Source of the DNA: Acidobacteriota bacterium
GTDB taxonomy: Bacteria > Acidobacteriota > Vicinamibacteria > Vicinamibacterales > UBA2999
DNA: 50,597 bases
Reading direction: 5' to 3'
Assembly (NCBI GenBank): GCA_009694735.1
Contig: SHUG01000007.1
Coordinates: 1-50,597 of the forward strand
This document shows, piece by piece, positions 2,504 through 21,864 of this stretch. The position numbers were made by a program, and so were the translations under genes. Position 1 is the stretch's first letter, and every line of letters begins with the position of its first letter. The notes under the pieces were generated by a model, which was not told the origin of the DNA, made no database searches, and worked only from the letters and a program-made list of their open reading frames with translations.

Positions 2504-4840
2504 GTGGCTGCATCCGGTTCCGCCCTATCGCGCCGCGTCAGTGAGGTGGTTGGCGTCGCGCTGTTCGCGGTGACGCTGATCTGGCTGATCGCGCTGGCGA
2601 CCTACGACCCGAACGACCCGGTCTGGTTCTTCAGCACCGGGATGCACGACGTGCCGGCGAATTTCGCCGGCCGCGTGGGCGCGTTCCTCGGCGAGCTGTC
2701 GTTCCAGTTGCTGGGCTACGCGTCATACCTGCTGCCGGCGGTGGTCGCCGTGGCGGGCTGGCGTTACTTCTGGTGCACCAAGATCGACGCCGCCTACACC
2801 AAACTCATCGGCGCCGTCATGCTGCTGGCCTGTGGCAGTGCGTTCCTGGGCTTGACGCTTGGCCGCGTCGACTTCGGGCCCCGCCCGTTCCGCGCCGGCG
2901 GCTACCTGGGTGAACGGCTCGGCGGCTTCATGGCCGAGTATCTCAGCCGTACGGGATCGGTGATCGTCATCCTGGCCCTGATCGTCGCCGCCGTCATCGT
3001 CTCCACCCAGGTGTCCTTCGGCCGGCTGTTCAGCGCCGTGTTCACCGCGATGCAGGGGCTGGGCGCGCAGGGCATGGCGTCGTTCCAGCTGTGGCGCGAA
3101 GAGCGCCGCAAGGCGAAGCAGCGGCGTGAAGTGCTCGTCAAGTACGGGAAGAAGGGCAGCGCGCCGACGGTGAAGGCGGACCAGGACTCGGCCGACAAGA
3201 AGCCGGCCAGAATTGAACGGCCGGAAATGGCGGCGACCGTGCGCGAACGCGCCGCGGCGCTGGCGATGGACGCTCAACCGGCCGCCGCCCGCACGCCGCC
3301 GGTGGTCAAGAAAGCCACGCCGAGAACGCCGATGGCGCCGTCCCTGCCGTTGCCGGAACCCGAGCGCAACGTTGAGCGCCGGCTCGGTTCGTACTCCTTG
3401 CCGCCAGTGTCGTTGCTCGATGCGCCGAAGGCCGAGCGCAAGATCGACGAGCGCGAGCTGATGGAATCAGCCCGCCTGCTCGAGGAGAAGTGCCGCGAAT
3501 TTTCGGTCGAAGGTTCGGTGGTGCAGATTCACCCCGGGCCGGTGGTGACGACGTTCGAGTTCAAGCCCGACGCCGGCGTGAAGTATTCGAAGGTGACCAG
3601 CCTGTCCGACGACCTCTGCCTGGCCATGCAGGCGGAGTCGGTGCTGATCGACCGCATTCCCGGGAAGGCCACCGTCGGCATCCAGATTCCGAACCCGAAC
3701 CGCGAAGCGATCTCGCTGCGCGAACTACTGGAATCGGAAAACTACACCCGCTCCACGTCGAAGCTCACGTTCGCGCTCGGCAAGACCATTCACGGTGAGC
3801 CGTTCATGGCCGACCTCGCCACCATGCCTCACTTGCTGATTGCCGGCTCGACCGGCTCGGGCAAGTCGGTCGGGCTCAACGCGATTCTCACCAGCATTCT
3901 CTATCGCGCCACCCCGGACGATGTGCGGATGATCATGGTGGATCCCAAGCGGCTCGAGCTGGGCATGTACGAGGACATCCCGCACCTGATGACGCCGGTG
4001 GTGGTTGAACCGAAGAAGGCGGCGAACGCGTTGCGGTGGGCCGTGCGCGAAATGGAGGAGCGCTACAAGACGCTGGCGGCGTACGGTGTCCGCAACATCG
4101 AACAGTTCAACCGCAATGTGCGCGCGGTGCTCGAGTCGGGCGAAGTGCCCGAAGAGGGCAAGCCCAATCGTCCGCTGCCCTTCATCGTGGTGGTGGTCGA
4201 CGAGCTGGCCGACCTGATGATGGTGGTGGGCAACGAGGTGGAAGAGTCGATCTGCCGGCTGGCGCAGATGGCCCGCGCGGTGGGTATTCACCTGATCCTG
4301 GCCACGCAGCGGCCGTCGGTCGATGTCATCACCGGCCTGATCAAGGCCAACCTGCCCGCCCGCATTTCGTTCCGCGTGTCGTCCAAGATTGACTCGCGCA
4401 CGATTCTCGACAGCAATGGCGCCGAACAGCTGCTCGGCAAGGGCGACATGTTGTTCCTGCCGCCGGCCTCGTCCCGGCACACCCGCTTGCACGGCCCGTA
4501 TATCTCCGAGCAGGAATCGGCCCGCGTCGCCAGCTTCCTGCGCAAGCAGGGCAAGCCGGTGTATGACGAAACCATCACCGAAGAAGCGAAGACCAACAAC
4601 CAGGAGCTGCTGTACGAGAAGGACGAACTCTACGACGAGGCCGCCCGCATCGTGGTGCAGGCCGGCCAGGTCTCGATTTCGTACCTGCAGCGCAAGATGC
4701 GCATCGGCTTCAGCCGCGCCGCGCGCCTGGTGGACATGATGGAGGCCGAGGGCCTGGTGTCACCGGCCACCGGCGGCAAGCCCCGCGAGGTGCTCGTCGG
4801 CCGCGAATACTTCGAGGAAGTGGATGCCCAACTCAGATGA
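2504..4840 (+). CDS. ftsK: DNA translocase FtsK/SpoIIIE
   Basis: 778-residue septal DNA pump that clears chromosome DNA at division. The N-terminal 175 residues hold about four hydrophobic membrane segments. A charged, Ala/Pro-rich linker (about 200-310) is short compared with E. coli FtsK. The motor has Walker A GSTGSGKS at about 448-455 and Walker B VVVVDELADL at about 560-570. The C-terminal winged-helix gamma domain, which reads KOPS-type polarity sequences, is present (YLQRKMRIGFSRAARLVDMME). The start is GTG at 2504, supported by GGAGAG seven bases upstream; the gene lies 12 bases after rnj. The next gene, an amidase that cleaves septal peptidoglycan, overlaps its 3' end, a logical cell-division pairing. 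Confidence 0.95.
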   Translation: MAASGSALSRRVSEVVGVALFAVTLIWLIALATYDPNDPVWFFSTGMHDVPANFAGRVGAFLGELSFQLLGYASYLLPAVVAVAGWRYFWCTKIDAAYTKLIGAVMLLACGSAFLGLTLGRVDFGPRPFRAGGYLGERLGGFMAEYLSRTGSVIVILALIVAAVIVSTQVSFGRLFSAVFTAMQGLGAQGMASFQLWREERRKAKQRREVLVKYGKKGSAPTVKADQDSADKKPARIERPEMAATVRERAAALAMDAQPAAARTPPVVKKATPRTPMAPSLPLPEPERNVERRLGSYSLPPVSLLDAPKAERKIDERELMESARLLEEKCREFSVEGSVVQIHPGPVVTTFEFKPDAGVKYSKVTSLSDDLCLAMQAESVLIDRIPGKATVGIQIPNPNREAISLRELLESENYTRSTSKLTFALGKTIHGEPFMADLATMPHLLIAGSTGSGKSVGLNAILTSILYRATPDDVRMIMVDPKRLELGMYEDIPHLMTPVVVEPKKAANALRWAVREMEERYKTLAAYGVRNIEQFNRNVRAVLESGEVPEEGKPNRPLPFIVVVVDELADLMMVVGNEVEESICRLAQMARAVGIHLILATQRPSVDVITGLIKANLPARISFRVSSKIDSRTILDSNGAEQLLGKGDMLFLPPASSRHTRLHGPYISEQESARVASFLRKQGKPVYDETITEEAKTNNQELLYEKDELYDEAARIVVQAGQVSISYLQRKMRIGFSRAARLVDMMEAEGLVSPATGGKPREVLVGREYFEEVDAQLR

Positions 4841-10028: not shown

Positions 10029-10676
10029 CTAGAAACGTTCGAGGGGCTCGGCGACGCGCAGCTTCGCGCCGGTGGCCGCGATCACCGCGTCCAGGGTGGT
10101 GTCGGTGGCGATCTCCGTCAGCAACAGGCCATCTGGTGTGACGTCGATCACCGCCAGCTCGGTCACAATCCGGTCGACCACTCCCAGGCCGGTCAGCGGC
10201 AGCGAGCATTTCGCCAGGATCTTATGGCCGCCGGCCTTGGTGGTGTGTTCCATCGCGATCACCACCCGCTTGGCGCCCGCGACCAGGTCCATCGCTCCGC
10301 CCATGCCCTTGACCATCTTGCCGGGAATCATCCAGTTGGCCAGATTGCCCGCCTCGTCCACTTCGAGGGCCCCGAGTACGGTGAGGTCGAGGTGACCGCC
10401 GCGCACCATCGCAAACGAATCGGCGCTGCTGAAATACGACGTGCCCGGCAGCTCGGTGACGGTTTCCTTGCCGGCGTTAATCAGGTCGGCATCAACGTCG
10501 GCCTCGCGCGGATACGGTCCGACCCCCAACATGCCGTTCTCGGAGTGCAGCGTGATCTCGATGCCGGCCGGCACGCAGTTGGCGACCAGCGTCGGCATGC
10601 CGATGCCGAGGTTCACGTAGTCGCCGTCGATCAGGTCCCGGGCAATGCGCTGAATAATGCGGTCGCGCTTATCCAT
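10029..10676 (-). CDS. scoB: 3-oxoacid CoA-transferase subunit B
   Basis: 215-residue beta subunit of a succinyl-CoA:3-ketoacid (or acetoacetate-type) CoA-transferase. The catalytic Glu lies in [10 protein letters not shown] (about residues 45-54), the family signature; [11 protein letters not shown] is also typical. It overlaps scoA by 8 bases, giving the usual A-B order. Function: reversible transfer of CoA between succinate and a 3-oxo acid in ketone-body or aromatic-acid breakdown. The exact substrate cannot be read from the sequence. Confidence 0.92.
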
Positions 10677-11364
10677 GGCTGACCGTCCGTTTCTCGATAC
10701 GCTTCACGTACTCAGGCCCCTGCAGCAGGCGCTTGATGAAAATGCCGGGCGTATGGATGCCGTCTGGTTCCAGCGTCCCAGCCTCCACCAAGTGCTCCAC
10801 TTCGGCAATCGTATGGCGCGCGGCCGTCGCCATCACCGGGTTGAAGTTGCGCGCGGTCTTTCGATAGACCAGGTTGCCGACGCGATCCCCCTTCCACGCC
10901 TTGACGAAGGCGAAGTCGGCGGCCAGCGGCGCTTCGAGAATGTAGGTGCGCCCGTCGATCACGCGGCTCTCTTTCCCCTCGGCGATCAACGTGCCCGCAC
11001 CGGTCGGCGTGAAGAAGCCGCCGATGCCGGCACCGGCCGCGCGCATGCGCTCCGAGAAGGTGCCCTGCGGCACCAGCTCCACCTCGATCTCCTTCTGGAG
11101 AAACTGCCGCTCGAATTCCTTGTTCTCGCCGACGTAGGTGGCGATCATCTTGCGCACCTGCCGCGACTTCAGCAGCGGGCCGACGCCGTAGTCGTCGATG
11201 CCGGCGTTGTTGCTGATGATGGTGAGGTCTTTCGTGCCGCGGCGATGCAGCGCGGCGATCAAATGCTCGGGAATGCCGCACAGCCCGAAGCCGCCGATCA
11301 TGATGCTGGCGCCATCGGGAATCGCGGCAACCGCTTCGTCGGCAGTGGCCAGAACCTTGTTCAT
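10669..11364 (-). CDS. scoA: 3-oxoacid CoA-transferase subunit A
   Basis: 231-residue alpha subunit, with the glycine-rich CoA-binding signature [10 protein letters not shown] (about residues 24-33) and the later FFTPTGAGT motif. It begins only 8 bases after the tyrA stop, so it may be read as the tail of the aromatic supraoperon. No Shine-Dalgarno is visible, but a perfect TATAAT lies 7 bases before the ATG, overlapping the tyrA stop. That spacing would start transcription about at the ATG and give a leaderless mRNA. Placing a catabolic CoA-transferase behind a biosynthetic operon is unusual; a second promoter would uncouple them. Confidence 0.92.
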
Positions 11365-11371
11365 GCGTTCG

Positions 11372-11377
11372 ATTATA
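11372..11377 (-). promoter_or_regulatory. TATAAT -10 box before scoA
   Basis: Consensus TATAAT on the minus strand, 7 bases upstream of the scoA ATG and overlapping the tyrA stop codon. No good -35 hexamer is seen 16-18 bases upstream. The spacing fits a leaderless transcript. Position is direct observation; promoter activity is inferred. Confidence 0.4.
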
Positions 11378-12164
11378 GGCAGGAAGACTTGGCGCGCGAC
11401 GCTTCGTCGAAGAACTTGCGGACGGCGTCGCGATCGTCGAGCTGATCCGACAGGGTGACGAGCTCCGCGGCCAGCACCCGCAGCAACGGCTTGATCTCCA
11501 GGCTATTGGTGGCCAGCACGCTCTCCCACACGCTCGCCTGGCTGCCGGCCAGCCGGGTCGTGTCGCGCAAGCCCTTGCCCGCCCACTGCAGGTTGTCGAT
11601 GCCGACCGCGCGCGCGACCGTCACCATCAACGCGCTTGCCACCACCTGCGGCAGGTGGCTGACGGCCGCCATCAGGCGATCGTGTTCTTCGCCGCGATCG
11701 GTCAACACCACCGGCCGGGCGCCGAGGGCCTCGACAAACTTCACGGCGCGGCGCACGGCATCGGGCGCATCCGGATTGGTCAGGAACCATGCGCGGCCAT
11801 CAAACAGGTCGGCCTGCGCGTCAGACGGTCCGGTCGTGGCGCCACCCGCCATCGGGTGACCGCCGACAAACTGCGACAGCTGCGCGGCGGCGGCCGCCGC
11901 CATCACCGCACGCTTGGTGCTCCCGGTATCGAGCACCAGCGCCTGGCGATGCACGATCGCGCCCAGTCGCGGCAGGGTCTGGATGATGACGTCCACCGGC
12001 ATGGCGAGGACCACGACCAGGGAGTCGCGGATCGACTCCAGTGGCTCACCTCGATCGACGGTGCGAACCTCGAGGCCCGGCCAGCGCCGTGCGGCCGCCA
12101 GGGCCACCGAGGTGCCAATCAGCCCCGGTCCGACGACGGCGAGCCGCGGCTGCGTCTCAGGCAT
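11373..12164 (-). CDS. tyrA: prephenate dehydrogenase (TyrA)
   Basis: 263-residue NAD(P)-dependent enzyme for the TyrA step of tyrosine synthesis, converting prephenate (or arogenate) to the tyrosine precursor. The N-terminal Rossmann loop is GPGLIG (residues 12-17); the conserved GGHPMAGG (H103) and a C-terminal helical dimerisation domain follow. There is no ACT domain or fused chorismate mutase. The ATG at 12164 is chosen from the Rossmann N-terminus and lies 20 bases after aroF; the frame is open further upstream inside aroF, but that is a shadow. It is the last biosynthetic gene of the supraoperon and the reason a tyrosine-sensing leader would make sense. Confidence 0.9.
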   Translation of the reverse strand: MPETQPRLAVVGPGLIGTSVALAAARRWPGLEVRTVDRGEPLESIRDSLVVVLAMPVDVIIQTLPRLGAIVHRQALVLDTGSTKRAVMAAAAAAQLSQFVGGHPMAGGATTGPSDAQADLFDGRAWFLTNPDAPDAVRRAVKFVEALGARPVVLTDRGEEHDRLMAAVSHLPQVVASALMVTVARAVGIDNLQWAGKGLRDTTRLAGSQASVWESVLATNSLEIKPLLRVLAAELVTLSDQLDDRDAVRKFFDEASRAKSSCL

Positions 12165-12184: not shown

Positions 12185-13231
12185 TTACCTGGCCCAACCG
12201 CGGCGGGCCACCGGTTCGAGGCAGATGCTGCGGCCAATCGCCGGCGCGATGATGCGCAGTTCCGCCATCAGGCGGTCGAACTGCGAGGGGAACATCGACT
12301 GGGCGCCGTCGCTCAGGGCGTGGTCCGGGTCGTTGTGGACTTCGATGATCAAACCGTCGGCGCCGGCGGCGACCGCCGCGCGGGCCATCGGCGCCACCTT
12401 GTCGCGGCGGCCCATGCCGTGGCTTGGATCCACAAAGATCGGCAGGTGCGAGAGTTCCTTGATGATCGGAATGGCCGACAGATCGAGGGTGTTGCGCGTG
12501 AAGGTTTCGAACGTGCGGATGCCGCGTTCGCACAAGATCACGTCGGTGTTGCCGCCCGCCAGAATGTACTCCGCCGACAGCAGCCACTCCTCCATCGTCG
12601 CCGCGATGCCGCGCTTGAGCAGGATCGGCTTGCGCGTGCGTCCGAGTTCGCGCAGCAACGTGTAGTTCTGCATGTTGCGCGCACCGACCTGGTAGATGTC
12701 GGCGTACTGCCCGACCACTTCGATCTGGTTGGCGTCCATGACCTCGGTGACCAGTTTGAGGTCGTGCGCGTTGGCGCCCGAACGCAGCAACTGCAGCCCG
12801 GCCTCGCCCATGCCCTGGAAGCTGTAGGGTGACGAGCGCGGCTTGAAGGCGCCGCCGCGCAGAATCTTGGCGCCCGCCCGCTTGACCGCGGCCGCGGTGG
12901 CGTGCACCTGCTCTTCGCTTTCCGCCGAGCACGGCCCGGCGATCACGATCACCTCGTCGCCGCCAATGCGGAGGTCGCCGATGGTGATGATGGTGTCGTC
13001 GGGCTTGAAGGTGCGGCCCGCCAGTTTGTACGGCTGCGTGATGCGCAGCACTTCATGCACGCCGGCCATCAGTTCGATCAGCCGCGGGTCGACCGTACCG
13101 CCGCCGACGACGCCGAGCACGAGGCGCGCGGCGCCGGTCGAACGATGCACGTCCATGCCCATTTCAACCAGGTGGGCAATGACCAGTTCCACTTCGGTGT
13201 CACTGGCCCGCTCTTTCATTACGACAATCAT
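12185..13231 (-). CDS. aroF: 3-deoxy-7-phosphoheptulonate synthase, type I-beta
   Basis: 348-residue DAHP synthase that joins phosphoenolpyruvate and erythrose-4-phosphate, the entry to the shikimate pathway. An N-terminal ferredoxin-like regulatory domain (residues 1-75), as in the Thermotoga-type I-beta enzymes, suggests feedback by Tyr or Phe. The catalytic barrel has the metal Cys in GPCSAES (C101), PEP-binding KPRSSPYSF, VDPSHG, and the metal ligands in IEVHNDPDHALSDG. The start at 13231 has GAGAGAG upstream. It follows chorismate mutase with 69 bases between them, filled by two tandem palindromic repeats. Confidence 0.94.
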   Translation of the reverse strand: MIVVMKERASDTEVELVIAHLVEMGMDVHRSTGAARLVLGVVGGGTVDPRLIELMAGVHEVLRITQPYKLAGRTFKPDDTIITIGDLRIGGDEVIVIAGPCSAESEEQVHATAAAVKRAGAKILRGGAFKPRSSPYSFQGMGEAGLQLLRSGANAHDLKLVTEVMDANQIEVVGQYADIYQVGARNMQNYTLLRELGRTRKPILLKRGIAATMEEWLLSAEYILAGGNTDVILCERGIRTFETFTRNTLDLSAIPIIKELSHLPIFVDPSHGMGRRDKVAPMARAAVAAGADGLIIEVHNDPDHALSDGAQSMFPSQFDRLMAELRIIAPAIGRSICLEPVARRGWAR

Positions 13232-13293: not shown

Positions 13294-13320
13294 GGCGGGT
13301 CTACCGACCCGCCTCCACGT
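13294..13320 (+). repeat. palindromic repeat, copy D (variant loop)
   Basis: GGCGGGTCTACCGACCCGCC followed by TCCACGT. The stem is GGCGGGTC/GACCCGCC with the loop TACC instead of TAAA. It spans the end of the chorismate mutase gene: the stop codon (13301-13303, TAG on -) sits in the hairpin loop and the last residues of the protein are encoded by the repeat. Confidence 0.65.
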
Positions 13321-13636
13321 CGGTCTTGGCTTGCTTCTCGCGCGCATCGCGCTCGGCTTCAAGACGCTGAATGCGCCGGGCCTCGTCCATGATGCGTTCG
13401 TACAACCGTGCCACGGCGTCGCCGTCGAGCGGGCCGCCGAGGCCCTCGTTGACCTGCCGCACATGGGCGATCACCGCGGCCTCGCGCGCCGGCTCATATA
13501 TCGGTCGCCCGAGTGCGTGCTTGAGGCGGCCCACCGAGTAGGCGCAGCGCGCGCGGCTATCGAGCAGGCGAACAATCACCTCGTCGATCTTGTCGATCTC
13601 ATCACGCAACGCCTCGAGGTTCAGTTCCGCAGCCAT
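13301..13636 (-). CDS. chorismate mutase, AroQ class
   Basis: 111-residue all-helical monofunctional chorismate mutase making prephenate for Phe and Tyr. Active-site residues match the E. coli P-protein domain almost number for number: R11, R28, K39, E48, R51, E52. The ATG at 13636 overlaps trpA by 16 bases; the longer in-frame extension is a shadow of trpA. The last residues (KTDVEAGR) are encoded by palindromic repeat D and look like a random extension beyond the helix. It sits between the Trp and Tyr sections of the supraoperon, which commits chorismate to the Tyr/Phe branch from the same transcript. Confidence 0.9.
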   Translation of the reverse strand: MAAELNLEALRDEIDKIDEVIVRLLDSRARCAYSVGRLKHALGRPIYEPAREAAVIAHVRQVNEGLGGPLDGDAVARLYERIMDEARRIQRLEAERDAREKQAKTDVEAGR

Positions 13637-14406
13637 CTCACGTACCGCTCCACCTCGTCCAGCAGGCCCGGCGCCTGTCCGTGCTCGGCAATGACTTTCA
13701 CGAGTGCGCTTCCCACCACGGCCGCATCGGCCCACTGGCCCACGGTCTTCACATGCTCGGGCCGCGAGAGCCCGAATCCGAGTGCCAGCGGCATGGCCGT
13801 TTCGGCCTTCACCCGCTCGGCCAGCTCACGGGCCGAGTCGTTCACCGTCTCGCGGACGCCAGTCACGCCGAGCCGCGAAATACCATACAAGAATCCACTG
13901 CCAAGCGCCGCGGCCTTGCGAATTCGGTCGACCGTGGTGGTTGGGCTCAATAGAAAAATTGTATCAATCCCCGCCCCGGCAAAGGCGGTCCGGAACGCCT
14001 CGCCTTCCTCAGGGGGCATGTCTAGGGTCAAGACCCCGTCGACGCCGGCCTTCCCGGCTTCCCGCACGAAGTAATCCAGGCCCATCCTCAGTATCGGATT
14101 GGCGTAGCTAAAGATGACGACCGGGGCGGAAATATCCGCGCGGGTGGCCGCCAGCATGTCCAGGACCTTGGGGAGGGTCGCCCCGGCCGCCAGCGCGCGT
14201 TCGGTGGCGCGTTGAATGACCGGGCCGTCGGCCAGGGGATCCGAGAACGGCACGCCCAGCTCGATGACGTCGGCGCCCGCCCGATCGAGGCGCTTGATGA
14301 TCCCCGCCGAACGTTCGAGGTCGGGGTCGCCGGCAGTCACGTAGGTCACCAGGCCCGTCTCGCCCTTGGCGCGAAGCGCCTTGAAGCGCTCGCTAATTCG
14401 CGACAC
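13621..14406 (-). CDS. trpA: tryptophan synthase alpha chain
   Basis: 261-residue TIM barrel that splits indole-3-glycerol phosphate and passes indole to TrpB. The catalytic E49 and D60 (in [15 protein letters not shown]) sit at the same numbers as in Salmonella TrpA; GFGLS near the phosphate site is present. The start is GTG at 14406, fixed by a strong GGAGGAGG six bases upstream, inside the end of trpB (14-base overlap). An upstream ATG in the same frame is ignored because it lies deep in trpB. Confidence 0.95.
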
Positions 14407-15622
14407 GGCCGGCCTCCTCCAGAATTTGCTCGACGGTCTGCACGTCCTTGTCGCCGCGGCCCGACAGGTTGACGAGCAGCACCGCATCCGGACCAAAGCG
14501 CTTTGCGCTCTTCAGGACGTACGCAATGGCGTGTGCCGACTCCAATGCCGGAATGATCCCCTCGAGGCGGGCCAGCTGCTGGAACGCGTCGAGGGCTTCG
14601 GCATCGGTCGCGAACGGGTATTCGGCGCGCCCGGTCTCTTGCAGGAATGCGTGCTCGGGGCCCACGGCCGCGTAGTCGAGCCCCGCCGACACCGAGTGCG
14701 TCGCCTCGATATTGCCGTGTTCGTCTTGCAGCACGAAGGTGCGGGTGCCCTGCAGCACCCCGGCCGCGCCGCCGGCAAAGCGCGCCGCGTGGCGACCAGA
14801 CCGGATGGCTTCGCCGCCGGCTTCCACGCCGATCAAACGCACGCCCGCATCGTCGATAAAGGCGTCGAAGATGCCGATGGCATTGCTGCCGCCGCCGACG
14901 CAGGCGATCACCGCGTCGGGCAGGCGGCCAACTTGCGCGAGGCACTGCGCACGCGCTTCCCTGCCGATGACGGACTGAAATTCGCGGACCATCAGCGGAT
15001 ACGGATGGGGGCCGAGCGCCGAGCCGAGCAGGTAGTGGGTGTCGCCCGGTCGCGCCACCCAGTCGCGCATCGCTTCATTGATCGCATCCTTGAGCGTGCA
15101 GCTGCCCGAATCCACTCCGCACACCGTGGCGCCGAGCAGGCGCATGCGGAAGACGTTCAGGGCCTGGCGCCGCATGTCTTCGGTGCCCATGTAGACCACG
15201 CACTCGAGGCCAAGCAGCGCGCAGGCGGTCGCGCTGGCCACGCCGTGCTGACCCGCGCCGGTTTCGGCGACCACCCGCGTCTTGCCCATGCGCTTGGCGA
15301 CCAGGGCCTGGCCCAGCGCGTTGTTAATCTTGTGCGCGCCGGTGTGCGTCAGGTCCTCGCGCTTGAGGAGGACGCGGCCCCCGCCGCAGGCCTCGCTCAA
15401 GCGCCGCGCATCCCACAGTGGCGTTTCACGGCCCACGTAGTGCTGCAGCAATCGCTCTAACTCCTCGGCGAATGCCGGATCGCGTCGCGCTTCGAAGTAC
15501 GCCGCCTCGAGCGCTTCGATCGGTGCGACCAGCGTCTCGGGCACGAAGCGGCCGCCGAAGGCGCCGTAGTAGCCGCGCGCGTCGGGGTCGCGCCGGCCAA
15601 ACCAGGTTGATGCCTTGCTCAC
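14393..15622 (-). CDS. trpB: tryptophan synthase beta chain
   Basis: 409-residue PLP enzyme of the TrpB1 type that condenses indole with serine. The PLP Lys is K98 in [14 protein letters not shown]; the phosphate loop GGGSNAIG and the ETGAGQHG motif are also present. GTG start, with the start overlapping the trpF stop as GTGA; AAGGAG lies five to six bases upstream. Length and motifs are normal. Confidence 0.97.
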
Positions 15623-16230
15623 ACTATCTCCTTGGCGGCGGCCATGAACCGCCGTAACAACTCGTGATTCTTGACGCCCGGCGACGCTTCAACGCCAGAG
15701 GCGACATCCACGCCGTAGGGCCGCACCGCGACGATGGCGTCGCGCACATTCTCAGGGGTCAAGCCGCCCGCCAACACCACTCGCCGTCGGTCTGCCACCG
15801 CGCGAGCGCGGGACCAATCCACGGTCTGGCCGGTGCCGCCATGGCGAACTGAATCGTGCGCATCGAGTAGCACCGTGGCATCGTCGACATCCGGCTCGAT
15901 GGCGCCAGCGTTCGCCGCGCCGAGATGAACGGCGCGCAGCACCGGCAAGTGGCTATGACCTTCGGTCCACACCGGCACGGCGCCGTGCACCTGCGCGAGC
16001 CGCACGCCGGCATCGGCGGCCCGGGCGATGTCCTCCGCCGTGGGGTTCACGAACACGCCGACGGGAGTGATGAAGGGCGGCAGGTGCCGAACGATCGCCG
16101 CGACCGCCGCCACACTGGCATGCCGGGGGCTCGAGGGCCACAGTACGAAGCCGAGCGCGTGGGCACCGAACAGGACGGCAGCCTCCGCATCCGCGCGCCG
16201 GGTGATGCCGCAGATCTTGATGGCCGTCAC
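15619..16230 (-). CDS. trpF: phosphoribosylanthranilate isomerase
   Basis: 203-residue barrel enzyme catalysing the Amadori rearrangement in tryptophan synthesis. KICGITR with catalytic C7 is at the N-terminus; the acid-type VLLDAHDS and the phosphate-binding [11 protein letters not shown] follow, and VDVASGVE is near the end. It starts with GTG and overlaps trpC by four bases (GTGA). Separate TrpC and TrpF genes, not fused as in enterobacteria. Confidence 0.95.
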
Positions 16231-17069
16231 GACCTACCTTCGCCAAGGCTACGGCGGGCAAGCGCCCCGCCGAGCGAGTCGAGCAGCGCGGCGAGTGCCG
16301 CGCCCGGCTGCGGCTCGACCATGAATCGCTCGCCCATCAGGAATGCCCGATAGCCCAGGGCCCTCATCGCCTGGAGGTCGTCACGGGTCTTCAGTCCGCT
16401 CTCGCTGATGCTGATGACGTCGCGAGGAATGCGGGCGGCGATCACCTGCGACGCCGACAGGTCCACCTGCAGTGTCCGCAGGTTGCGATTGTTCACGCCA
16501 ACGATCGCCGCGCCCGCGGCCACTGCGCGATCGCACTCGTCCGCGGTGTGCACCTCGACGAGCGTTGCGAGACCGAGCGCTCGCGCGCCGCTGGACAACT
16601 CCCGCAGTTGGTCATCGGTCAGGGCGGCGACGATCAGCAGGATCGCGTCGGCGCCGGCGGCGCGCGCTTCAAGCAGCTGATACTCATGGACCATGAAGTC
16701 CTTGCGCAGGAGCGGGATCGTCACGGCCGCCCGCACGGCGGTCAGGTGCTCCAGCGAACCATCAAAAAACCCGGGCTCGGTGAGCACCGAAATGGCGGCC
16801 GCGCCGCCACGTTCGTATGCCGACGCAATGGCGACCGGGTCGTAGGCGCTCCGCAAGACGCCGCGCGAAGGCGAACGCCGCTTGCATTCGGCGATGATGT
16901 TGATCGTGTCAGGCGCGGAGAGCCGCGCGGTGAACGCGGCGCCGTCTGGCAACACCGCCAGGGCTCGCCGCTCGAGCCGCGCACGGGGCTCACGCGCGAT
17001 GGCCGCATCGACGCGGGCGCGGGTGGCGGCGACGATCGCCTCGAGCAGGTCTGGCGGCGCGCCCGTCAC
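16227..17069 (-). CDS. trpC: indole-3-glycerol phosphate synthase
   Basis: 280-residue barrel enzyme forming the indole ring. ECKRRSPSRG (E61, K63), the KDF motif with K123, VEVHT, GVNNRNL and SESGL are all present. GTG start, with a GTGA overlap with trpD. The protein ends in an extra tail [12 protein letters not shown], which is encoded by a dispersed repeat (16234-16264) rather than by conserved barrel sequence. The tail should be dispensable. Confidence 0.95.
   Translation of the reverse strand: MTGAPPDLLEAIVAATRARVDAAIAREPRARLERRALAVLPDGAAFTARLSAPDTINIIAECKRRSPSRGVLRSAYDPVAIASAYERGGAAAISVLTEPGFFDGSLEHLTAVRAAVTIPLLRKDFMVHEYQLLEARAAGADAILLIVAALTDDQLRELSSGARALGLATLVEVHTADECDRAVAAGAAIVGVNNRNLRTLQVDLSASQVIAARIPRDVISISESGLKTRDDLQAMRALGYRAFLMGERFMVEPQPGAALAALLDSLGGALARRSLGEGRS
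16234..16264 (-). repeat. CTTCGCC-AAGG-CTACGGCGGGCAAG repeat, copy 1
   Basis: On + it reads CTACCTTCGCCAAGGC then TACGGCGGGCAAGCG. A diverged copy is found at 47046-47079 (CCACCTTCGC...GCTACGGTGGGCAAGC). Here it lies inside the 3' end of trpC and encodes its last residues. Confidence 0.5.
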
Positions 17070-18087
17070 GCGCTGGCTCCTTGCGAAACGCGCACCAGCT
17101 TTGCGAGCACGCCGGCGGCGGCGCGACTATCGATCGCGGCAGCGGCCCGGGCGACACCGGCCCGCACCGTGTCGGCCTGGCCGGCAATGAACAGCGCGGC
17201 CCCGGTGTTGAGCAACACGACATCCCGTGGTGCGCCCACGACGCCATCGAGCACCGCTCTGACAATGGCAGCGTTGGTCTCGGCGTCGCCGCCTTTGAGC
17301 GACTCGGGCGTGGCCTTCGCCAACCCGAAGTCGGCGGGATGCACGTAGAACGTCTGTACCGCATTGTTCCGGCACTCCGACACCTTGGTGTAACCGGTCG
17401 TCGAGAGTTCATCGAGGCCATCGGCGCCGTGCACGACCCAGGCGCGTTCCGATCCGAGCAGCGCCAGCGAGCGGGCGATCAACTCGGTGAGGTCTGGCCG
17501 TGGCACACCGACGATCTGGCGCGTCGGCCCAGCCGGATTGGTGAGCGGGCCGAGCAGGTTGAAGGCAGTTCGCACGCCGAGGTCTTTCCTCGCTTGCGCT
17601 GCGTGCTTCATGGCTGGATGGAAGGTCGGCGCGAAGAAGAACGCGATCCCCACCTCGGTCAGGCAGCGCGCGGCCACGTCGGGCGAGGCCTGGATGTTCA
17701 CGCCGAGTGCCTCGAGCACATCGGCGCTGCCGCATTGACTGGAGACCGAGCGGTTGCCGTGCTTGGCCACCCGGGTGCCGCATGCGGCCATCACGATCGC
17801 CGCGGCCGTCGAGATATTGAAACTCCCGGACCGATCGCCGCCGGTGCCGCAGGTATCGAAGACCGGCCCGGGCTGGGTCGGTACAGCCACGGCGTTGGCG
17901 CGCATCGTCTGCGCGAGGCCCACCAGCTCGCTCGGGCGCTCGCCCTTCATGGCGAGGCCCACGAGCAGGCCGGCGATCTGCGCCGGCGCGGCTTCGCCGC
18001 GCATGATCGCCGCCATCGCACCAGCGGCTTCGGCGGTGGTCAGGTCTTCCTGTCGGCGCAGTTTCTCGATCAGGGCTGGGAACATGA

Positions 18088-18091
<4 letters not shown>
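17066..18091 (-). CDS. trpD: anthranilate phosphoribosyltransferase
   Basis: 341-residue enzyme adding phosphoribose from PRPP to anthranilate. CGTGGDRSGSFN (81-92) and KHGNRSVSS (110-118) are the PRPP and anthranilate signatures. It starts with GTG at the trpG stop (GTGA); an ATG two codons later is an alternative. It is separate from TrpG. Confidence 0.96.
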
Positions 18092-18654
<563 letters not shown>

Positions 18655-18660
18655 GGCTTC

Positions 18661-20133
18661 CTACAGTCCGGTCTGCGCCAGCTCCAGCGCCCGCAACATC
18701 GCGCGCGCCTTGTCCTTGGTCTCTTCGTACTCCGCCGTCGGGTTCGAGTCGGCGACAATGCCCGCGCCGGCCTGAATGTAAGCCTTGCCGCCTTCCATCA
18801 GGATGGAGCGGATGGCGATGCAGAAATCGAGGTTACCGGCAAAGTCGAGATAACCCACCGCGCCGGCGTAGAGCCCCCGCCGGGTCGGCTCGAGTTCGTT
18901 GATGATCTGCATGGCGCGAACCTTGGGGGCGCCCGACACGGTGCCAGCCGGGAAGCACGACACCAGCGCATCGAGCCGATCGCGACCCTCCGCCAACTGC
19001 CCTTCCACAACCGAGACCAGGTGCATGACGTGCGAGTAGCGCTCGAGCGCCATGAACTTTGACACGCGGACCGTACCGTAGTCGCAGACCCGGCCAATAT
19101 CGTTGCGGCCCAGGTCGACAAGCATCACATGCTCGGCCTTCTCTTTCTCGCTGCGCTTCAATTCCTCGGCCAGCCGAACGTCCTCTTCGTCGGTCTTCCC
19201 GCGTGGCCGCGTGCCTGCGATCGGATGCGTGACGGCGTGCCGGCCTTCGACGCGGACCAGCATTTCCGGCGACGAACCGACGATCGAGCGATCGCCCATG
19301 CGAATGAAGAACATGTAGGGCGACGGGTTGACATGCCGCAGGGCGCGATACACCGTGAACGCGTCGACGCCGACTTCGGCTTCGAACCGTTGTGACAGGA
19401 CGACCTGGTAAATGTCGCCGGCCGCGATGTATTCCTTGGCTTTCCTGACGATCGATTCGTAGGCCTCCTGCGAGAAGTTCGAGACCAGGTTGAGGGCCTC
19501 GCCGCCGGTGGTGCGCTTGAGCGACAGCGCCCGCTCCAGCTCGCCCTCGAGGAATGCGATCTTCGCGCAGGCGAACTGGTACAGCGACTTCAAGTCCTGG
19601 TCGCCGGAGATGCGTGCGTTGGCGATCAGGAGGATGCGGTGCTGCACGTGATCGAACGCCAGCACCGTGTCGAACAGCATGAACCCGGCGTCATCGCGGT
19701 CTGAGGTGTCCGCGTCGGCGCGGGCGGCCGTTGGCTCGAACCACGCCGCCGTGTCGTAGCCGAGGTAGCCGACGGCGCCGCCGGTAAACCGCGGCAGCCC
19801 CGGCACGAACGGTGACTGGAAGCTGTTCATCAGGTCGCGCAAAGTGTCGACAAACGGCTGCTCGCCAGTGCTCGTGATCCCCGCTTTCTCGATCACCGTC
19901 TGGCCATGCTTTCCGCGCAGGATCAGGAACGGATCCTTGCCGAGGAACGAGTAGCGTCCGACATGCTCGCCGCCCTCGACGCTTTCGAGGAGGAACGCAT
20001 AGTCGGAGTGTTCCGCGATCTTCAGGAATGCCGAGACCGGCGTCAGCAGGTCAGCGACCAGCTCCTTGCACACCGGCACAAACGTGGCCCGCTTGGCGAG
20101 GTCCACGAACTCTTCGAATGTCGTCTGCTTCAT
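18661..20133 (-). CDS. trpE: anthranilate synthase component I
   Basis: 490-residue chorismate-using subunit that makes anthranilate. The tryptophan feedback site is visible as LLES (48-51) with GRYSF (59-63). Chorismate-site motifs GTRPRGKTDEED and DLGRNDIGRV are present, with PAGTVSGAPK near the end. The ATG at 20133 is fixed by GGAG five bases upstream and an ATGA overlap with aroDE; the longer in-frame extension lies within aroDE and is a shadow. The protein is therefore expected to be Trp-feedback inhibited in addition to the attenuator control of the operon. Confidence 0.96.
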   Translation of the reverse strand: MKQTTFEEFVDLAKRATFVPVCKELVADLLTPVSAFLKIAEHSDYAFLLESVEGGEHVGRYSFLGKDPFLILRGKHGQTVIEKAGITSTGEQPFVDTLRDLMNSFQSPFVPGLPRFTGGAVGYLGYDTAAWFEPTAARADADTSDRDDAGFMLFDTVLAFDHVQHRILLIANARISGDQDLKSLYQFACAKIAFLEGELERALSLKRTTGGEALNLVSNFSQEAYESIVRKAKEYIAAGDIYQVVLSQRFEAEVGVDAFTVYRALRHVNPSPYMFFIRMGDRSIVGSSPEMLVRVEGRHAVTHPIAGTRPRGKTDEEDVRLAEELKRSEKEKAEHVMLVDLGRNDIGRVCDYGTVRVSKFMALERYSHVMHLVSVVEGQLAEGRDRLDALVSCFPAGTVSGAPKVRAMQIINELEPTRRGLYAGAVGYLDFAGNLDFCIAIRSILMEGGKAYIQAGAGIVADSNPTAEYEETKDKARAMLRALELAQTGL

Positions 20134-21584
20134 CGTTTCTCCATCACGCCGAGCCTGGCCACCGCGGCGTCGCGCATGACGCGATCGGCGGGACGCTGCT
20201 CGGTCCACCATTCAAATTGGGCTTGCGCCTGGGCCACCAGCATGTCGAGGCCGCCAATCGTGCGGCAGCCGGCCTGGGCCGCGTCCCGCAACAACCGTGT
20301 CTGTGGCGGGTTGTAAACGAGGTCGTAAACCAGTTGCCCGTCGAGGGCGCAGCCCGGCGGCAGGGGCGACTCATGCTCGCTGGGCGCCGTGCCCACCGGG
20401 GTCGCGTTGACCAGCAGGTCCCAGGTGCCCGCGGCGGGAGGCCACTCGCCGATTGCGGCGCTGGTGAGCGCGGCGATCGATCGGGCTTGTTCCGAGCGGC
20501 GCGCGCACAGCGTCACGCGAACGCCCGCGGAGGCCAGCGCCACCGCGACCGACCGCGCGGCGCCGCCGGCGCCAAGCACGGTGGCCCGCTGGCCGGCCAG
20601 CTTCATGACCGACTCGAGTGGCGACAGAAAGCCGGTGACATCGGTATTGCACCCCAGCCACTTCGTCCCGACCCGCCGCAGGGTATTGACCGACTGAATG
20701 CGGCGGCTCACCGGATCGCATTCATCGGCGCGCTCGAACGCCGGCACCTTGAAAGGCGCGGTCACGCTGACACCGGCGAGGTTGAGCGCATCGGCAAACG
20801 TCATGAGGTCGTCGAAATCCGCGGCCGCCAACGGCAGGTAGACGGCGTCCAGGTTGGCGGCACGAAACGCCGCGTTGTGCATCGACGGCGAGACCGAATG
20901 CGCGACGGGCTTGCCGGCCACTCCGTAGAGGGCGGTGCGAGCGCCGATGTGGCGAAAGCGAAACTCGTGCTGCAGCCGCTCGACATCGATCTGCCCCGGC
21001 GCGACGTGGTCGCCGGCGTAGGTCCAGCACGACCCGAACCAGCTGGCCAGCACGCGGGTGGCCACCCCGGCGTCGCCCATGGCGATCAGCACCATGGGCA
21101 CGCGGGTCTGTTGCCCGACGGCGCGCAGCGTCAGGCAATCGCCAAGGCGATGCGCCGTGACGGCAAGCTTGACCACTTCGGCGCCACTCGCCAGCATGGC
21201 GTGCGCCTTGTCGTGAATGTCGATGGGGGTGCCTTCGAAGTCGTGATGCGACAGCACGATTCGCCGGCCGCCGGTTTGGGCAATCAGGTCGGCGCAGCTG
21301 CCGCGCCATTCGAGGTCGACAAATTCGGCGCCGAGCGCAAGCGCCTCGGCGAGAATGCGCCGGCGCTCCTCCTCGCTCCCCTCGAACATGCCGCCTTCAG
21401 ACTTGGGGCGACAGGTGATGATCACCGGCTTGCGCCGCCCGGCCAGGGCCGCCGCCGCGCTGGGGTCGCGCACGGAATCCAGCCGCAGCTCCACGAGGTC
21501 GGTATCGCCCACCCGATCGCGCCGCGTACGCAGCTCGGCCATGGTGTCGGCCGTCACGGTCGCGCAGAGTTTGGCGGTCTTCAT
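20130..21584 (-). CDS. aroDE: bifunctional 3-dehydroquinate dehydratase/shikimate dehydrogenase
   Basis: 484-residue fusion. Residues 1-215 are a type I dehydroquinase: VELRLDSV, LSHHDFEGTP with the catalytic His, and the Schiff-base K139 in VVKLAVTAH. Residues 220-484 are shikimate dehydrogenase: SPSMHNAAF substrate loop, catalytic K279 in SVTAPFK, D315 in GCNTDVTGF, and the NADPH loop LGAGGAARSVA. Such AroD-AroE fusions are known in plants, Chlamydia and some other bacteria. It is the first structural gene of the supraoperon, 49 bases downstream of the attenuator. AGGGA lies just upstream of the ATG. Confidence 0.95.
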   Translation of the reverse strand: MKTAKLCATVTADTMAELRTRRDRVGDTDLVELRLDSVRDPSAAAALAGRRKPVIITCRPKSEGGMFEGSEEERRRILAEALALGAEFVDLEWRGSCADLIAQTGGRRIVLSHHDFEGTPIDIHDKAHAMLASGAEVVKLAVTAHRLGDCLTLRAVGQQTRVPMVLIAMGDAGVATRVLASWFGSCWTYAGDHVAPGQIDVERLQHEFRFRHIGARTALYGVAGKPVAHSVSPSMHNAAFRAANLDAVYLPLAAADFDDLMTFADALNLAGVSVTAPFKVPAFERADECDPVSRRIQSVNTLRRVGTKWLGCNTDVTGFLSPLESVMKLAGQRATVLGAGGAARSVAVALASAGVRVTLCARRSEQARSIAALTSAAIGEWPPAAGTWDLLVNATPVGTAPSEHESPLPPGCALDGQLVYDLVYNPPQTRLLRDAAQAGCRTIGGLDMLVAQAQAQFEWWTEQRPADRVMRDAAVARLGVMEKR

Positions 21585-21633: not shown

Positions 21634-21676
21634 AATAAAAAAGCGCCTCTCCCCCGTGCGGGTCGAAGAGGCGCTT
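21634..21676 (-). terminator. trp attenuator (intrinsic terminator)
   Basis: On the minus strand the arm AAGCGCCTCTTC pairs with GGAGAGGCGCTT (10 perfect pairs plus a G-U and a G-C) around a loop rich in C and G, followed directly by a run of six T. It lies between the leader peptide and aroDE, so it would stop transcription before the first structural gene. It is the strongest intrinsic terminator in the window. Confidence 0.85.
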
Positions 21677-21705
21677 CGGTCGAGCGTCGTATTAACGCGT
21701 CGTGG

Positions 21706-21822
21706 TTACACGGACCGGTCAGCCTCTCCTGCTGGGCACCAATACCACCACGTACGCGCACCGCTCCCGATCTGGCCAAAAGACCGGGTCTGGGGCGCGG
21801 TGAACAAGACTCGTGAGCGCAT
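21706..21822 (-). CDS. trpL: trp/aromatic operon leader peptide (WWYW)
   Basis: 38-codon ORF. Residues 25-28 are Trp-Trp-Tyr-Trp (codons at 21750-21739), followed by Cys-Pro; it ends with TAA at 21706. No Shine-Dalgarno is visible before the ATG, which would lie only about 6 bases from the transcription start if the promoter at 21835-21864 is used. Its end is 29 bases before the terminator stem. The segment GGAGAGGC (codons 32-34) repeats the 3' arm of the terminator and can pair with its 5' arm, the expected antiterminator. Ribosome stalling on scarce Trp-tRNA (or Tyr-tRNA) would favour read-through. The peptide itself is not expected to have a function. No family search was possible. Confidence 0.78.
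   Translation of the reverse strand: MRSRVLFTAPQTRSFGQIGSGARTWWYWCPAGEADRSV
21722..21729 (-). promoter_or_regulatory. antiterminator segment in the leader
   Basis: GGAGAGGC on -, identical to part of the terminator's 3' arm (21642-21649), and able to form eight pairs (one G-U) with GCCTCTTC in the 5' arm. It starts a few codons after the Trp codons, so a ribosome stalled at them would leave it free. Role inferred by analogy with classical trp attenuators. Confidence 0.6.
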
Positions 21823-21834
21823 GTGAACGTCGAA

Positions 21835-21864
21835 AGGCTAACAGACCCAGTGCAGTGGCGTCAA
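21835..21864 (-). promoter_or_regulatory. candidate promoter of the aromatic supraoperon
   Basis: TTGACG (21859-21864) and TAGCCT (21835-21840) with an 18-base spacer on -. The -35 is close to consensus and the -10 is weak. The predicted start is about 6 bases before the leader ATG. Confidence 0.45.

Follow-up and report, generated by a model that had tools for sequence, protein, structure and literature searches.

An eleven-gene operon for aromatic amino acid biosynthesis in an Acidobacteriota bacterium raises the question of how such a gene set is controlled. The stretch of DNA analyzed (contig SHUG01000007.1, 50,597 nucleotides; here called the window) carries these genes on the minus strand in the order aroDE-trpEGDCFBA-CM-aroF-tyrA, and they overlap or are separated by short gaps. 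Upstream of them, a sequence-only reading had noted a 38-codon ORF with Trp-Trp-Tyr-Trp at codons 25-28, a 29-base gap, a GC-rich stem and a T6 tract, followed by aroDE. This description was confirmed on the minus strand. The classical attenuation layout proposed from it is supported as well; there is a conserved antiterminator whose formation is incompatible with that of the terminator. The antiterminator had not been mentioned in the earlier reading, and its arm lies inside the leader ORF.

The Operon and Its Leader

The operon opens with aroDE (20130-21584; minus strand, as are all operon genes and leader features), which encodes a fused type I 3-dehydroquinate dehydratase/shikimate dehydrogenase (Pfam PF01487, PF08501, and PF18317; NCBIfam). 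It is followed by trpE (18661-20133; TIGR00564), trpG (18088-18654; TIGR00566), trpD (17066-18091; TIGR01245), trpC (16227-17069; NF001377), trpF (15619-16230; phosphoribosylanthranilate isomerase models), trpB (14393-15622; TIGR00263), and trpA (13621-14406, start approximate; TIGR00262, PF00290). The last three genes encode chorismate mutase (CM, 13301-13636; PF01817, TIGR01807), the DAHP synthase AroF (12185-13231; PF00793, PF18152), and the prephenate dehydrogenase TyrA (11373-12164; PF02153, PF20463). A fused aroDE with ten further aromatic genes, as had been claimed from the sequence, is thereby borne out by NCBIfam and Pfam matches. The element precedes the same operon wherever it was examined in the order, with a constant gene set, and tyrA is the last gene in nearly all complete cases. 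Only one complete operon lacks CM-aroF-tyrA, that of L120 (genome G017), and its leader, WWWWCF, has four Trp codons but lacks Tyr. In the window, a two-subunit CoA-transferase (scoAB-like, 10029-11364) lies 8 bases past tyrA. Because many genomes of the order keep this pair adjoining the operon, it may be co-transcribed with it.

The leader begins with a -35-like hexamer, TTGACG (21859-21864), which is conserved in the genus alignment and starts at the outer coordinate, 21864, of the earlier reading. After a spacer of 18 bases comes a -10-like hexamer, TAGCCT (21835-21840), which was recovered both in the genus alignment and in a motif survey of leaders. The leader ATG (21822-21820) lies 12 bases 3' of TAGCCT, and the transcript is therefore predicted to be near-leaderless. 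Read from the sequence and compared among relatives, the leader ORF (21706-21822) comprises 38 codons, MRSRVLFTAPQTRSFGQIGSGARTWWYWCPAGEADRSV, and its TAA ends at 21706. The control codons TGG TGG TAT TGG (21739-21750) belong to an aromatic block that was examined in 119 leaders. The distance from the stop codon to the terminator stem is 29 bases. This stem is GC-rich and 12-13 bp long (GAAGCGCCTCTTC...GGAGAGGCGCTTT, 21677-21640), and it runs into T6 (21642-21637); the whole intrinsic terminator (21637-21677) was identified from relatives, pair counts, and folding. A simple promoter and terminator scan of the window, with a loop limit of 8 bases and a strict promoter rule, listed neither the leader promoter nor the terminator.

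Conservation Across the Order

The named close relatives are Acidobacteria metagenome assemblies. Regions upstream of aroDE were taken from relatives found by protein, with a first set of 49 genomes, and in all 49 an ORF carrying a block of aromatic codons lies ahead of a GC stem and a T run. The Trp codons, their spacing, and the terminator are kept in relatives upstream of aroDE, which is what the sequence-only reading had proposed to check; across 15 families of the order, the Trp codons, the distance from Trp codons to hairpin, and the terminator are conserved. A covariance model (R1) was run on 129 genomes of the order and matched 119, in one place per genome save for weak antisense echoes of the hairpin itself. 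In the other ten, aroDE is absent from the assembly or present as a fragment without its 5' end. The window's own element scored 90 bits (Infernal, E 1.6e-22), and no second place was found in its genome by Infernal, the sole other match being a weak echo of its own hairpin on the opposite strand.

Specificity was also examined with a signature of three TGG within six in-frame codons, a nearby stop, a GC stem of at least 9 bp, and a T run. In 2.2 Mb of the relatives' DNA, searched on both strands, this signature was found at these leaders alone. Three scan matches first listed as lying elsewhere turned out to be this leader too, on fragmentary contigs in which no aroDE call was possible. No relevant family was matched in Rfam 15 at gathering or relaxed thresholds. 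RF00513 (Trp_leader) gave no match in 21 genomes, while E. coli was positive in the same search, and a search of plasmids gave no match. Weak R1 matches outside the order were read singly; many (e.g., L088-L090, L094-L098, and L100-L104) were set aside as chance matches or ordinary hairpins, and others are genuine leaders that precede other genes. The observation is confirmed as real and beyond chance.

Two comparisons bear on whether the leader ORF is translated. Within the genus, the distance from start codon to Trp block is 57, 72, or 75 nt, so that length changes preserve the frame. In a small sample, dN/dS was about 0.5 in frame and 1.0-1.4 out of frame. Over the order, the leader peptide is poorly conserved outside the aromatic block. 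A TTGACA/G-like hexamer with a TAnnnT-like -10 was found in 107 of 119 leaders and in 8.7% of shuffles, a comparison of motifs only, with a spacer of 16-18 bases that is mostly 18. The start codon lies most often 9-14 bases past the -10, a distribution biased by the survey's use of the first in-frame start. A transcription start solely downstream of 21706, which the earlier reading had regarded as speaking against its attenuator, is unlikely because the promoter-like pair precedes the leader ORF.

Alternative Helices and Geometry

The alignment of relatives resolves three segments: region 2 (GARRRGGC, within the leader ORF), region 3 (GCCTCTTC), and region 4 (GAAGAGGC). Pairing of 3 with 4 gives the terminator and pairing of 2 with 3 the antiterminator, and the two are mutually exclusive. 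In the window, region 2 (GGAGAGGC, 21722-21729) is the 5' arm of the antiterminator; it is a copy of the terminator 3' arm and lies within codons 32-34 of the leader ORF. Region 3 (21665-21672) is common to both helices. These assignments rest on the alignment, on pair counts, and on the fold of the stalled state, which in the window consists of GGAGAGGC:GCCTCTTC together with a second helix, CGGTC (21713-21717) with GACCG (21677-21681). Both strands of this second helix, a feature of the window's genus, are invariant in the nine genus members.

Among 49 relatives, 89.7% of cells are paired in the terminator, with 7 pairs changed on both sides, and 84.7% in the antiterminator, with 6 such pairs. 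For both helices, pairing drops sharply once the segments are slid by 1-3 columns. Where region 3 reads GCCCCTTC or GCCCCCTC (L036, L044, L046, and L047), matching G's are found in regions 2 and 4.

The distances are constrained as well. From Trp block to region 2 there are 15-24 nt in 46/49 relatives, mostly 18-24 nt, and to region 3 there are 68-83 nt in 47/49; region 2 starts 6-7 codons past the first Trp. With a usual ribosome footprint, region 2 is just left free when the A site sits at one of block codons 1-4. Aromatic codons occupy the fourth block position in 82% of leaders and fall to 34%, 21%, 8%, and 0% at the next four. When the footprint of a stalled ribosome was masked, 2:3 was found to form (mean 0.84), whereas masking it over the stop codon gave 3:4 (mean 0.94). 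Equilibrium folds of the complete leader favor the terminator even with a stalled ribosome, and therefore the switch must be kinetic. Kinetic switching is the usual assumption for ribosome-mediated attenuation.

A third state was seen in folds of untranslated RNA from the window's genus. Here the Trp codons (region 1, 21744-21758) pair with ACCACGACGCG (21696-21706), which lies at and past the stop codon, and region 2 is closed in a loop. The probability of 2:3 in this state is at most 0.22 in eight of the nine genus members and 0.57 in the other, L006. This genus-level protector varies over the order and is not conserved there.

Proposed Mechanism

Very probably, the aroDE-trpEGDCFBA-CM-aroF-tyrA supraoperon is controlled by a ribosome-mediated transcription attenuator. 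The evidence, comparative and computational throughout, consists of the codon block, the alternative helices, the geometry, the promoter motif, the gene content, and their conservation across the order; from these we infer translation, stalling, termination and its relief, and a Tyr input. Transcription would start from the promoter whose -10 ends 12 bases 5' of the leader ATG, giving an almost leaderless RNA. When charged tRNA is ample, the ribosome would reach the stop codon and cover the 3' portion of the antiterminator arm, and the 3:4 terminator would form. When charged tRNATrp, and presumably also tRNATyr, is scarce, the ribosome would stall at Trp-Trp-Tyr-Trp and leave region 2 free to pair with region 3, supported in the window by CGGTC:GACCG, so that all eleven genes would be transcribed. 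In untranslated RNA of the window's genus, the Trp codons would fold onto the sequence past the stop, which would hide the antiterminator and let the terminator form.

Tyrosine Codons in the Leader

Aromatic residues fill 80-100% of four block positions in the 119 leaders. Tyr accounts for 13.5% of codons at the seven block positions and 2.0% of codons in the operon genes (p about 1e-55, a value that ignores relatedness). A Tyr codon stands inside the block in 98 of the 119 leaders, and in or just before it in 14 of 15 families. The Tyr enrichment is confined to frame 0 and covers positions -1 and +1 to +3, and block orders are permuted, including WWYW, WYWYW, WRWYW, WWWY, and WSYWWW. Phe showed no significant enrichment in the block of these leaders (p 0.16, again ignoring relatedness). 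TAT and TAC occur in the block at 72:40 and in the operon genes at 789:2183, and TTT is likewise favored over TTC. Leaders of family f4 lack Tyr although the operon has tyrA. A test of Tyr codons against the presence of tyrA is powerless in this order because L120 is the only complete operon without that gene. A few leaders (L190, L195, and L198) keep region 2 and the terminator with a single Trp codon plus Phe (or Tyr), which suggests drift toward a general aromatic sensor.

Going by the gene assignments, the Trp and Tyr codons match the two dedicated end products of the operon, Trp and Tyr. The input is probably dual.

Leaders of pheA and Other Genes

In the 108 genomes with a match, pheA (prephenate dehydratase) was never found beside the operon. 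In L234, L236, L237, and L238, a leader rich in Phe codons (e.g., MRLRAFPFVFTFAGFTAAREAV) and a terminator precede pheA, which is fused there to chorismate mutase. These four belong to the genus and family of the window, and their leader ORFs lie about 100-200 bases upstream of pheA, as a putative separate Phe attenuator. With a Trp/Tyr block before the operon that ends in tyrA and a Phe-rich leader before pheA, the leader codons correspond in each case to the product of the genes that follow. One leader may serve as a Trp and Tyr sensor for the supraoperon while pheA has a separate Phe leader, so that in this order of Acidobacteriota two attenuators matched to gene content would cover the three aromatic amino acids. 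Our confidence in this wider reading is evenly divided.

Other leaders were noted beyond this set. Trp leaders built in the same way stand before a trpB-like gene in other classes of Acidobacteriota (L205-L210 and L087, e.g., WWWYPYDNGGRVAS). They read WWWY... or WWWC..., followed by GGRVAS/GGREA, with the switch CCGGAGGGC/GCCCTCCGG. Candidates are a WWWSLR leader before a distant aroDE gene (L211, 450-560), a Cys/Trp-rich leader before trpE (L093, about 4600-4700), and, in a sister family within the same class (L091 and L092), short ORFs with Trp/Phe/Tyr/His codons upstream of aroDE.

Alternative Explanations

The same attenuator might sense Trp only, with the Tyr codon serving as a spacer, a pause site, or a need of RNA structure. 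This is a serious possibility, which we rate somewhat short of an even chance. The aroR leader of C. glutamicum (Phe-Tyr-Phe) responds to Phe and not to Tyr (PMC11802643), and a Tyr codon therefore need not sense Tyr; moreover, a stall at block position 4 barely frees region 2, and the preference for TAT and TTT could mean that weakly pairing RNA is needed. A single base-pairing need is, however, hard to reconcile with Tyr codons that are confined to frame 0, occur at several positions and in 14/15 families, and stand in permuted orders. The dedicated Tyr gene within the operon and the dedicated Phe gene outside it also speak for Tyr sensing.

Two further explanations were considered. In Bacillus, the aromatic supraoperon is under the control of TRAP. 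The insertion of trp genes into an aro operon, together with TRAP, has been described (PMC1173090). A protein- or small-molecule-controlled attenuator of this kind (TRAP-like or a riboswitch), with an incidental short ORF, is nevertheless most improbable here: no Rfam family was matched, the alignment shows no conserved aptamer-like structure beyond the two helices, and what is conserved is the Trp/Tyr codons, the frame, the distance to region 2, and the position of region 2 inside the ORF. It is also very unlikely that the leader terminator is constitutive and that the peptide or a small RNA acts in trans with no attenuation of the operon. Such trans action was proposed for rnTrpL/peTrpL of S. 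meliloti, where trpL is leaderless and yields a terminated RNA and a peptide (PMC7298713), and the present leader is likewise predicted to be near-leaderless. The conserved, covarying antiterminator that excludes the terminator argues against it, as does the poor conservation of the leader peptide over the order outside the aromatic block. A role in trans could be added to ribosome-mediated attenuation rather than replace it.

Relation to Known Systems and Meaning

The E. coli trp attenuator (RF00513) has the same basic parts: adjacent Trp codons in a leader ORF, an antiterminator and a terminator that exclude each other, a T run, and a biosynthetic operon. In folds of RNA from the window's genus, the Trp codons likewise pair with the sequence past the stop. 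In contrast to E. coli, region 2 here precedes the stop codon, within the leader ORF, the block holds both Trp and Tyr, and the start is predicted to be near-leaderless; the operon opens with aroDE, and aroF, tyrA, and the chorismate mutase gene also belong to it. The Trp attenuators known from Corynebacterium and Streptomyces share two or three UGG codons, a GC-rich terminator, and a triple of alternately pairing segments, whereas they precede trp operons or trpS in another phylum, and their pairing motif is gGCC-rGCy-GGCC as opposed to GARRRGGC-GCCTCTTC-GAAGAGGC (PMC1262725). Sinorhizobium meliloti trpL/rnTrpL has a leaderless Trp leader ORF and a terminated leader RNA, both of which are predicted here, but it controls trpE(G) only and has Trp codons only (PMC7298713). 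The C. glutamicum aroR leader also combines two kinds of aromatic codons and precedes a DAHP synthase gene, yet it is Phe- and not Tyr-responsive and lacks trp genes (PMC11802643).

Among aromatic supraoperons, that of Bacillus differs in its use of the TRAP protein. The attenuated supraoperons of Bacillus and Desulfovibrio vulgaris likewise join trp with common-pathway or tyrA genes under one control. The Desulfovibrio case was listed in 2005 from a database of putative attenuators, and it is a prediction with another gene set (PMC1173090). In the open literature searched, no paper on trp attenuation in Acidobacteria was found, and an earlier mention outside it is possible. Neither the element, nor a leader attenuator of Acidobacteria, nor a Trp-Tyr block before an aromatic supraoperon was found in Rfam 15 and the literature searched. 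On our best reading, the mechanism would be of a known class with classical logic, and what is new would be the lineage, the position of the antiterminator, and probably the dual Trp/Tyr input.

Leader genes this short usually escape annotation, and the covariance model could serve as the starting point for a new RNA family. For a phylum with no described leader attenuator in the literature searched, a regulatory mechanism is offered for most of the aromatic pathway. More than 100 natural leaders allow codon identity, spacing, and RNA structure to be compared with gene content. Should the Tyr codons be functional, these leaders would be a clean case in which one leader integrates two end products of a branched pathway.
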